Notes under the pieces: model-generated | Told to the model about the DNA's origin: nothing | The model's database searches: none | The model's input: only the letters and a program-made list of their open reading frames with translations | Assembly: GCF_001747405.1 (NCBI RefSeq) | Contig: NZ_CP017305.1 | Span: 266,001-330,000 of the forward strand | Direction of reading: 5' to 3' | Origin: Chlorobaculum limnaeum | GTDB lineage: Bacteria > Bacteroidota > Chlorobiia > Chlorobiales > Chlorobiaceae | DNA: 64,000 nt | Shown here: positions 29,578 to 63,019 of the stretch, piece after piece | Layout: each line of letters opens with the position of its first letter | Numbering within the stretch: position 1 is the first letter of the stretch | Made by a program: the position numbers and the translations under genes

Positions 29578-29597
29578 CCCCGGACTGAAGTCCGGGG
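29578..29597. terminator. GC-rich hairpin downstream of the lpxB operon
   Basis: CCCCGGACT (29578-29586) pairs perfectly with AGTCCGGGG (29589-29597) around two bases. A relic of the same motif, GCCCGGATTTATTTT, lies 30 bases upstream. No U-run follows; it sits between two convergent genes. Confidence 0.5.
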
Positions 29598-32703: not shown

Positions 32704-32742
32704 ATGGGACGAATAGGACTGATAGGACAAATAGGACGTAGA
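32704..32742 (+). repeat. nonamer array A (four GGAC units)
   Basis: GGAC starts at 32707, 32716, 32725 and 32734, exactly nine bases apart: GGACGAATA, GGACTGATA, GGACAAATA, GGACGTAGA. It is in the gap between the start of ispH and the end of murI, and is followed by an inverted array. Confidence 0.85.
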
Positions 32743-32771
32743 GGAGGAAGAGAAAAGCAGGTTCTTTCTTT

Positions 32772-32798
32772 GTCCTTGATGTCCCTGTTGTCTCTTTA
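32772..32798 (-). repeat. inverted nonamer array A'
   Basis: GTCC, GTCC and GTCT at 32772, 32781 and 32790, again nine bases apart, so on the minus strand the units read as GGAC. It ends 18 bases before the murI stop codon. Confidence 0.8.
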
Positions 32799-32816: not shown

Positions 32817-33635
32817 CTACACCCCCACCAGCTCCACGTCGGGGAGTTCGGTGCCCATGAAGAGGCGGTAGAGCTCGCGGAATTTCTGCGGAAGGTCGCT
32901 CACCATGAGGTGCGGAAGCGCTTGTTCGTCGCCCCGATTCAGGATGTTGCGGGCCGCGAGCAGCTCTCCGGCCTTGCTGGCGACCGCTTCGGCGGAGTCG
33001 ATGATGGTGATCTGTGGCCCGGCGATGCTTTCGATGACCTTGCGGAGAATCGGGTAGTGGGTACAGCCGAGCACGAGCGTGTCGATCGCCTTGCCCGCGA
33101 AGGCCGCGAGGTACTCTTCGGCGACGAGGCGGGTGGCGGGGTGGTCGATGAACCCCTCCTCTGCGAGCGGCACGAAGAGCGGACAGGCTTTCGGGAAGAC
33201 TTCGAGCGCGTCGTTCTCCTCCTGGATCGCGCAGGTGTAGGCGTGCGAGCCGATGGTGGCCTGGGTGCCGATGACGCCGATTCGGCCCGACCTCGTCCTG
33301 CCGGCGGCCAGCTCCGCGCCCGCCCTGAGCACGCCGATGACCGGAACGCCGCCAGCCGTCTGCTCGACCACGTCGAGCGCGAGCGCTGAAACGGTGTTGC
33401 AGGCCACGATGATCAGCTTCGGCTGATGCTTCATCAGAAGCTCGGTGTCCTCGCGGGCGTACTTGCGGATCGTGACCTGCGACTTCGTGCCATAGGGCAC
33501 ACGCGCCGTGTCGCCGAAGTAGATCAGCCGCTCCGCAGGCAGCGCGGCTTGCACCGCCTTGACGACGGTCAGCCCGCCGATGCCCGAGTCGAAGATGCCG
33601 ATAGGGCTGTCAGGTGAAATCTTGTGCTGCGGCAT
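32817..33635 (-). CDS. murI: glutamate racemase
   Basis: 272-residue cofactor-free racemase supplying D-glutamate for peptidoglycan. N-terminal [17 protein letters not shown], first catalytic Cys in [13 protein letters not shown], second in [25 protein letters not shown] is the usual substrate-loop region. It lies between two nonamer-repeat regions and appears to be transcribed alone or after ychF. Confidence 0.95.
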
Positions 33636-33650
33636 GGGTTATGCTTTTAT

Positions 33651-33686
33651 GGGACACTCGGGACGAGTGGGACAGATGGGATATGC
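33651..33686 (+). repeat. nonamer array B (four TGGGAC units)
   Basis: GGGAC starts at 33651, 33660 and 33669 and GGGAT at 33678, exactly nine bases apart. It lies just upstream of the murI start and is followed by an inverted array. Confidence 0.85.
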
Positions 33687-33699
33687 AGAATTTGCTTTC

Positions 33700-33735
33700 G
33701 TCCCAAGTGTCTCATTCGCCCCACAAGTCTCAAAA
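33700..33735 (-). repeat. inverted nonamer array B'
   Basis: GTCCC (33700), GTCTC (33709), GCCCC (33718) and GTCTC (33727), nine bases apart: four complementary units facing array B, ending two bases before the ychF stop codon. Confidence 0.82.
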
Positions 33736-33737
33736 TT

Positions 33738-34829
33738 TCAAACATTGAACCTGAAGGTAATCACGTCGCCGTCCTTGACGATGTACTCTTTGCCTTCGGA
33801 GCGCATTTTGCCGGCCTCCTTGACCTTCTGCTCCGAGCCGAGGGTGATCAGGTCTTCGTAGGCCATCACTTCGGCGCGGATGAACCCCTTCTCGAAGTCG
33901 GAGTGAATGGCTGCGGCGGCTTCCGGGGCGGCAGCGCCCTTGCGGATCGTCCATGCGTGAACCTCCTTGACGCCCGCCGTGAAGTAGTTGTGCAGGCCGA
34001 GCAGGTCGTAGGCGGCCATGATCAGGCGGTCGAGGCCCGACATTTCGAGCCCGAGGCTTTCGAGGAAGTCCGGGCGCTCCTCTTCGGGCAGCTCGGCGAT
34101 GTCCGCTTCGGCTTTGGCGCTGATGACGAGCATTTTCGATCCGCTCTCCGCAGCGATCTTCGCCACCGTGGCGGTGTGCTCGTTACCATCCGGCAGGTCG
34201 TTTTCGGCGACGTTGGCCGCGATAAGCACCGGTTTGGCCGTGATGAGGAAGAACTGTTTCGCCATCTCTCGCTCTTCGTCGTTTTCGAGAATGCGGCGCA
34301 CCGGCACACCCTCGCCAAGTCCTGCCACGATTTTTTCGGCCAGATCGACCAGCGCCTGCTGCTCCTTCTCCTTGCGAGCGCCCTTGCGCAGCTTGTCAAT
34401 GCGCTTCTCCATGCTGTCCAGATCAGCCAGCATCAGCTCGGTCTCGATGGTCGTGATGTCGTCTGTAGGATCGATCTTGCCTTCCACATGAATGATGTTC
34501 GGGTCTTCGAAGCAGCGCACCACGTGGATGATCGCGTCAACCTCGCGGATGTGCGAAAGGAACTGGTTGCCGAGTCCCTCGCCCTTGCTGGCGCCTCTGA
34601 CCAGACCGGCAATATCGACGATTTCGAGCACGGCGGGCACGATCACCGGAGTCTTGACGACGCGGGCGAGTTCACCGAGGCGCGGATCGGGCACCAGCAC
34701 GGTGCCGACGTTGGGTTCGATGGTGCAGAACGGGTAGTTGGCGGCTTCGGCCTGCTTGGCCGTGATGGCATTGAACAGCGTCGATTTGCCGACATTGGGC
34801 AGACCGACAATGCCGCAGCGGAGTGACAT
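33738..34829 (-). CDS. ychF: ribosome-binding ATPase/GTPase YchF (OBG family)
   Basis: 363 residues. P-loop [18 protein letters not shown], the switch motif [29 protein letters not shown] and the relaxed NKxE-like specificity site ([11 protein letters not shown]) fit YchF, which prefers ATP. A coiled-coil region is followed by a C-terminal TGS domain ([16 protein letters not shown] and [12 protein letters not shown]-like [14 protein letters not shown]). The start is ATG 34829 (MSLRCGI); a TTG two codons upstream is possible. It diverges from cmk. Confidence 0.95.
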
Positions 34830-37539: not shown

Positions 37540-37574
37540 AGAAAAACCCCTTCATTCGTGAAGGGGTTTTTCTG
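37540..37574. terminator. terminator after rpsA with a TTCG tetraloop
   Basis: A 15-bp perfect stem, AGAAAAACCCCTTCA (37540-37554) and TGAAGGGGTTTTTCT (37559-37573), closed by the stable TTCG loop. A-run and T-run allow either direction. Confidence 0.95.
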
Positions 37575-37589: not shown

Positions 37590-37625
37590 GTGGACTTTGT
37601 AGACTCTGTGGACGCTGTGGATAAA
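37590..37625 (+). repeat. nonamer array C (four GTGGAC units)
   Basis: GTGGAC at 37590, GTAGAC at 37599, GTGGAC at 37608, GTGGAT at 37617, exactly nine bases apart. It follows the rpsA terminator by 16 bases. Confidence 0.85.
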
Positions 37626-37649
37626 GCTTCGGAAAAATCTTCTTTCCCC

Positions 37650-37667
37650 GTCCACAAAGTCCACTAT
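37650..37667 (-). repeat. inverted nonamer array C'
   Basis: GTCCAC at 37650 and 37659, with a degenerate third unit at 37668 that overlaps the era stop. GTCCACAAAGTCCAC (37650-37664) can pair with GTGGACTTTGTAGAC (37590-37604) at 14 of 15 positions. Confidence 0.8.
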
Positions 37668-56794: not shown

Positions 56795-56830
56795 GTGGAC
56801 GTTGTGGACGCCGTGGACGAGGTAGACAAC
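56795..56830 (+). repeat. nonamer array D (four GTGGAC units)
   Basis: GTGGAC at 56795, 56804 and 56813 and GTAGAC at 56822, exactly nine bases apart. It ends four bases before the stop codon of the convergent GH13 gene. No inverted partner is seen. Confidence 0.85.
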
Positions 56831-56834
56831 AGGA

Positions 56835-62931: not shown

Positions 62932-62967
62932 TGGGTGTCATGGGACTCATGGGACTTGTGGGTCGGG
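62932..62967 (+). repeat. nonamer array E (four TGGGAC units)
   Basis: TGGGTG at 62932, TGGGAC at 62941 and 62950, TGGGTC at 62959, exactly nine bases apart. It starts four bases after the rfbD stop, before rfbB. No inverted partner is seen. Confidence 0.82.
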
Positions 62968-63019
62968 AAGATGGATGCGGATTTTTCTGATTTCCAATTC
63001 ATAATTCATAATTTGTTCA

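Follow-up and report, generated by a model that had tools for sequence, protein, structure and literature searches.

The gap between ychF and murI in Chlorobaculum limnaeum holds two arrays of nonamers that face each other, raising the question of whether they are kept for the RNA helices that they could form or belong to a wider family of repeats with another basis. We analyzed this locus within the window, by which we mean the whole 64-kb stretch of DNA under study (part of the 2,797,276-base C. limnaeum genome, G000), and in relatives. An earlier, sequence-only reading had given the positions and phasing of the arrays correctly: the 9-nt spacing is exact in both arms, with four units against four. 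On the + strand the forward cores are GGGAC at 33651, 33660 and 33669 and GGGAT at 33678, and the inverted cores are GTCCC at 33700, GTCTC at 33709, GCCCC at 33718 and GTCTC at 33727. Four of the eight match the claimed GGGAC/GTCCC cores exactly, and the other four carry one mismatch each. The array had been described as ending two bases before the ychF stop codon, which holds if the final nonamer is taken in full (to 33735), whereas six bases separate the end of the last inverted core from that codon; read in the sense of ychF, arm 2 begins 6 nt past the stop. The array had also been called the clearest member of a family. That it belongs to a family was borne out, while other loci, with four exact units in one arm, are clearer examples.

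Table 1. Array elements and neighboring features in the window. Genes were called with our own codon-usage finder and not taken from an annotation, and their start codons are approximate.
Feature	Position	Strand	Description
ychF-murI element, arm 1	33651..33686	+	four 9-nt units, cores GGGAC, GGGAC, GGGAC, GGGAT; dialect D2, T[G/A]GGACNNN
ychF-murI element, loop	33687..33695		separates the arms in the array model (arms 33651-33686 and 33696-33731)
ychF-murI element, arm 2	33696..33731	-	four 9-nt units, cores GAGAC, GGGGC, GAGAC, GGGAC (- strand reading)
ychF	33738..34829	-	stop codon 33738-33740; element follows gene end; Pfam YchF-GTPase_C PF06071, E 1.2e-39
murI	32817..33635	-	start codon 15 nt from element; Pfam Asp_Glu_race PF01177, E 5e-20
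Second element, arm 1	32706..32750	+	murI-ispH gap; TAGGAC-type units; ispH-side gene matches LytB PF02401
Second element, arm 2	32768..32794	-	ARGGAC-type units; directly past murI stop
Third element, arm 1	37590..37626	+	GTGGAC dialect; rpsA-era convergent gap
Third element, arm 2	37646..37664	-	GTCCAC units on + strand
Canonical terminator-like hairpin	37540..37573		A and T tracts; adjoins third element; outside array family
Fourth element	56796..56831	+	single arm found; GTGGAC dialect
Weak one-arm member	62942..62968	+	two GGGAC units and GGGTC

A count at period 9 of arrays with three or more units, with cores matching at 4/5 positions or better, gave six in the window, while none of 20 third-order Markov controls yielded more than one. 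Those at 56796 and 62942 are less clean than the others, the third unit of the latter being weak. The genes flanking the third element were recognizable by their Pfam domains (six S1 domains in RpsA; the GTPase and KH_2 domains in Era), and Rfam at gathering thresholds reported three tRNAs in the window and nothing else.

Arrays in strict 9-nt register lie between genes and face inward

The C. limnaeum genome contains 93 instances of three exact GGAC cores at period 9, against 4 of the reversed control pattern, and 57 of the 59 clusters of at least three exact units lie outside called genes. Spacing was assessed in a systematic sample of 864 kb, made up of the window and 40 stretches of 20 kb each, spread evenly. 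Same-strand intergenic GTGGAC pairs in this sample were 9 nt apart in 54 cases, 18 nt in 29, 27 nt in 12 and 20 nt in one, and no pair had any of the remaining spacings between 4 and 30, while genic pairs showed little such phasing (3 at spacing 9). Three spellings coexist in the genome, namely GTGGACNNN, T[G/A]GGACNNN and A[G/A]GGACNNN, and the ychF-murI element is of the T[G/A]GGACNNN type. The second dialect was revealed when our initial motif refinement drifted from GGGAC to GTGGAC, and a neutral core model was used afterwards. Because this model has a high background below score 16 (67 real versus 48 reversed matches at threshold 14), our counts come from thresholds 15-16 or from exact patterns; the thresholds were picked after inspection of the data, and bare-core counts are biased toward intact cores. 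Isolated copies of GTGGAC outside arrays were fewer than the means of 120 anagrams, both between genes (30 versus 57) and within them (159 versus 441). As the motif on its own shows no enrichment beyond the arrays, the array, and not the motif, constitutes the unit.

We then classified the arrays by the orientation of the flanking genes. Among gaps of at least 30 nt in the 864-kb sample, 16 of 82 convergent gaps contained an array, compared with 17 of 285 tandem and 4 of 89 divergent gaps; convergent gaps were enriched relative to both divergent (p = 0.003) and tandem gaps (p = 0.0006). Reversed-control arrays in the same gaps numbered 3, 2 and 0 in convergent, tandem and divergent gaps, respectively. 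Across all fetched sequence of the C. limnaeum genome, the start of the array on its GGAC strand is flanked by a stop codon in 65 of 96 cases and by a start codon in 31, and the array begins within 25 nt of that codon in 42 of the 65 stop-side arrays versus 7 of the 31 start-side arrays. The unbiased sample taken alone gave 20/35 and 3/15 for the same comparison. The orientation of neighboring arrays is equally one-sided: where two lie less than 90 nt apart in this genome, the GGAC arm leads in 23 pairs, the reverse order does not occur and two pairs run in the same direction. The corresponding counts for 30 loci of 30 genomes, C. limnaeum included, were 8, 0 and 2.

Other repeats were also noticed in convergent gaps. 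These comprise period-7 (GAATTAT)n tandem repeats (L064 3578-3719 and L065 16992-17155), and the palindromes TAGGGGCAACC and GGTTGCCCCTA together with the variant GGGGCGAACC (L038 4781-4949, L039 12735-12845 and L046 11136-11182).

Spelling holds genome-wide and changes at orthologous gaps

Relatives found by means of MurI comprised Chlorobaculum and other Chlorobiaceae, and their ychF-murI, murI-ispH and rpsA-era gaps were read by eye. At the ychF-murI gap, after exclusion of L033, in which the gene start is missing, 15 relatives were readable: three have full facing arrays (L018, L019, L020), five have partial or one-armed arrays in other spellings (L023, L029-L032), and seven have none. The rpsA-era gap of 18 genomes of the genus holds arrays of GTGGAC type in 6, decayed arrays in 2, ATGGAC in 3, A[G/A]GGAC in 2, a T[G/A]GGAC-like array in 1 and none in 4. 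The element is therefore dispensable, being absent from 7/15 and 4/18 of these gaps. The sequence-only reading had held that array-free gaps in close relatives, with spacing and expression intact, would speak against it, and this was found in part: L021, L022, L024 and L025 lack the array, and their ychF-murI gap measures 6 nt. At a third locus, the window and Chlorobaculum sp. 24CR (L023) share a near-identical murI-ispH array (32706-32794) that is missing from the closer relatives L018, L019 and L020, so that loss or local exchange must have occurred. Orthologous gaps show arrays being gained and lost as well as switching dialect. Where the ychF-murI element could be compared across four orthologues, identity was 89% in the cores of the 5′ arm (107/120), 79% in the loop (81/102) and 57% in the fillers (41/72).

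Four-unit arrays of any spelling were present in 19 of 21 Chlorobaculum-group genomes, 15 of 65 sister-genus genomes and none of 12 from other families of the order, although control matches equal or exceed arrays in a few genomes (G026, 22; G065, 9). Some complete genomes of the genus have almost no such arrays (none in G001 and G003, one in G019). Three-unit GTGGAC arrays occurred in 15 of the 21 genus genomes, 4 of the 65 sister-genus genomes and 0 of 308 others drawn from the phylum, and three-unit ATGGAC arrays in 5 of the 21, being strong in G006, G010, G011 and G018. The choice between these two spellings is made genome by genome. In the 13 array-rich Chlorobaculum-group genomes (at least 10 arrays each), 586 of 587 three-unit arrays follow the spelling of their genome, GTGGAC or ATGGAC, in a count that demands three like units, lone units of the other spelling existing inside arrays (e.g., in G007). 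Descent explains part of this split, because in a cmk/rpsA DNA tree all three placeable ATGGAC genomes fall in one seven-genome clade, which also includes the GTGGAC user G009 and has weak internal support.

Long heptamer arrays of GGACTGA type were observed in the rpsA 3′ gap of the sister genus (L156/L158, from G042 and G076); these have a GGAC core at period 7, not 9. Heptanucleotide repeats are also known from Geobacter metallireducens, where GGGACCG heptamers occur in 49 places, and these resemble the nonamer arrays in being short G-rich tandem units, in four copies, at many places. They differ in having period 7 and in lying also inside genes, and the accessible portion of that report describes neither a free triplet nor facing arms (PMC2700814). 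Our search of the open-access literature found no description of nonamer arrays in Chlorobiaceae.

Slippage, DNA uptake and mobilization

Arrays of this kind could in principle be neutral minisatellites, in which nonamers expand by replication slippage, then decay, and are tolerated past gene ends. Unit copy number does differ between orthologues, the arrays sit in permissive places, and homogeneous runs are found in G047, G004, G002 and G010, which indicates that slippage also acts on some arrays. Outside such exceptions in other genomes, neighboring units differ from those of a minisatellite (VNTR) in that, in C. limnaeum, they are not alike over their full length: neighboring fillers are identical in 2 of 93 cases versus 7.6% expected from random draws (p = 0.02), the opposite of what recent duplication would leave. 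Exact-core runs are restricted to lengths of 3 units (37 runs), 4 (25) and 5 (2), and the cores change at a different rate from the fillers. The filler of the innermost unit is distinctive and rich in purines, its first base being A at a frequency of 0.61, G at 0.36, T at 0.03 and C at 0. Moreover, slippage does not produce inward orientation or genome-wide dialects, and as the source of the family as a whole we consider it quite improbable. In G047 (L131 1478-1604), one arm was seen to hold ten identical GGGACGAAT units plus variants, a recent expansion when set against the usual four-unit arms.

Species dialects are also a property of the DNA uptake sequences (DUS) of Neisseriaceae. As described in the accessible part of one report, these have one spelling per genome, a small common core and inverted pairs near gene ends (PMC3630211), and a second source, likewise available in part, lists Chlorobaculum limnaeum as naturally transformable (PMC3613366). 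The likeness suggests that the arrays might be uptake-like signals for natural transformation, and the single-dialect feature does apply to the GT/AT pair, with other dialects coexisting. In contrast to DUS, the nonamer motif occurs in intergenic arrays, in tens of clusters and not thousands of single sites, and isolated GTGGAC falls below anagram means both between and within genes. This lack of enrichment outside arrays makes it unlikely that the motif is read by a receptor acting on single sites, as happens in DNA uptake. In addition, only one four-unit array was found in G019, which we take to be the transformable C. tepidum TLS. Overall, we regard a role in uptake as very unlikely.

In place and behavior the arrays are a REP/BIME-like gene-end repeat with a new architecture. 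REPs and BIMEs, so far as the available parts of two reports portray them, are extragenic, lie mostly past coding regions and in convergent gaps, form inverted pairs, reach many copies, and come in species-specific types that can combine into hybrid pairs (PMC3733652, PMC2817692). The extragenic location past genes, the inverted pairs and the species-specific types, as reported for REPs in part of the first of these (PMC3733652), would fit a family mobilized by a Y1 (RAYT-type) transposase. Y1_Tnp is moreover present in 16/16 genomes with at least 10 four-unit arrays versus 2/5 with fewer (Fisher p = 0.0075). Unlike a REP, however, a single nonamer arm is a phased degenerate array and not itself a short palindrome, only opposed arms pair, and the copies have no fixed sequence in common beyond the core. 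Neither of the two Y1 genes in the C. limnaeum genome adjoins or is flanked by arrays, and one of them lies between palindromes of another kind, CCGGACTNNAGTCCGG; two defining features of REPs are thus lacking. Reverse transcriptase shows an association of the same kind, being found in 12/16 array-rich genomes versus 0/5 of the remainder (p = 0.006), and the three genomes without Y1 are closely related in the tree. Since Y1 and reverse transcriptase associate alike, genome size and the load of mobile elements probably act as confounders, and kinship, like genome size, confounds both associations. Mobilization by a Y1 transposase accordingly appears distinctly unlikely to us.

The CCGGACTNNAGTCCGG palindromes themselves, of which the 864-kb sample contains 13 exact copies (for example at 29578-29597 in the window and at 1262, 1379 and 2183 in L134), flank the Y1 transposase gene at G000:C1:2252073. 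Together with that gene they resemble a conventional REP-RAYT pair that is distinct from the nonamer arrays. Two further candidates were rejected. One is templating of the arrays by a reverse transcriptase: RVT_1 is absent from 4 of the 16 array-rich genomes (G006, G007, G009 and G010) and so is not required. The other, a sponge for CsrA, in the form of CsrA-binding GGA arrays, would need a protein for which PF02599 gave no match in the C. limnaeum genome, while control genomes matched in 3 of 14 cases. None of CsrA, Y1 transposase and reverse transcriptase was identified as a factor acting on the arrays.

Arm pairing and a possible role at gene ends

The sequence-only reading had envisaged a ladder of short helices in which cores pair and fillers do not. 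Folding the RNA on both strands, as it proposed, gave minimum free energies of -42.1 and -34.6 kcal/mol (z of -5.3 and -4.5), and none of 200 shuffles folded as well on either strand. Folding through the cores is thus upheld for both strands, although the + strand fold contains an 11-bp helix that runs through one filler. Pairing as a conserved feature did not hold up. No compensatory changes in the cores were seen among relatives, a comparison the same reading had suggested; what changes from species to species is the spelling of the flank of the core, in all arrays together. In a small test on 12 GTGGAC hairpins of the same dialect, own arms folded with a mean of -37.7 kcal/mol and swapped arms with -39.9 (permutation p = 0.92). 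Among the four orthologous ychF-murI hairpins the own arm pair was best in one, and 7 of 23 hairpins in the C. limnaeum genome combine arms of different dialect. As own arms pair no better than swapped ones, core pairing follows from the shared, inward-facing core; as far as testable, it is not separately maintained.

These results bear on the implication of the earlier reading that the element is an RNA stem selected for pairing, that is, an intrinsic terminator or an mRNA-stabilizing hairpin in the narrow sense. The strong folds on both strands would agree with such a stem, as would the placement of arrays after stop codons and in convergent gaps and the order of a 5′ GGAC arm followed by a 3′ GTCC arm in all 23 opposed pairs. 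Like bidirectional intrinsic terminators, the arrays can form hairpins and lie between convergent genes, where canonical terminators were detected in 5 of 16 gaps with arrays versus 34 of 63 gaps lacking them, a tendency toward replacement that is not significant (p = 0.16). Against this stand the swapped-arm result (p = 0.92, n = 12) and the mixed dialects in 7/23 hairpins, which indicate that arms are not selected for pairing, and the lack of a U-tract enrichment, with 5 of 8 T after the 3′ arm in 23% of 64 arms versus 20% of random intergenic stretches. Canonical terminators also stand beside some arrays. They are equally common in tandem gaps with arrays (4/17) and without them (62/243), and in the species read by eye the terminator-like hairpin of the rpsA-era gap follows rpsA whether or not an array is present. 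A stem selected for pairing is, in our judgment, unlikely.

The explanation that we favor, and to which we would give about an even chance, is that the ychF-murI array is one copy of an extragenic inverted-repeat family of Chlorobiaceae, located mostly past gene ends, in which the array is the unit, a trans-acting factor sets the spelling and the copies have a role at gene ends. Each arm comprises about four xyGGACNNN units at a strict 9-nt interval, in which the core is constant and the triplet varies, and the arms face each other across a short loop. It would be the whole array, not the single motif, that this factor keeps or spreads, and copies presumably arise in this way. A trans-acting factor that reads arrays is the simplest account of the dialects, and we infer that it would set the genome-wide spelling as GTGGAC or ATGGAC, alongside two additional dialects, T[G/A]GGAC and A[G/A]GGAC. 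The inversion of the cores allows a transcript arriving from either side to form a long, imperfect stem immediately past the stop codon. Judged by its place and its foldability, the element, where functional, may serve as an mRNA 3′-end stem or as a boundary between convergent genes.

A more specific proposal, unlikely as it stands, is that these arrays represent a novel type of genomic element in 9-nt register, each array being read or written as a whole by a protein or RNA particular to the lineage, which fixes the spelling of all arrays in a genome and leaves the triplet of each unit free. When a repeat family keeps in step throughout a genome, an active enzyme or a binding protein is usually behind it, and the combination of a single spelling choice, as seen in array-rich genomes, with an exact 9-nt register and a free triplet was found in none of the known short-repeat families compared. 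If such a lineage-specific factor exists, a change in it would re-spell the arrays of a genome, as at the rpsA-era gap, which holds GTGGAC, ATGGAC or A[G/A]GGAC arrays depending on the species; given the two-dialect split, the factor of one species should distinguish (GTGGACNNN)n from (ATGGACNNN)n. To our knowledge, little is known about mRNA ends in this phylum, and if the arrays are indeed 3′-end or boundary elements, they would add a class of gene-end signal to it.
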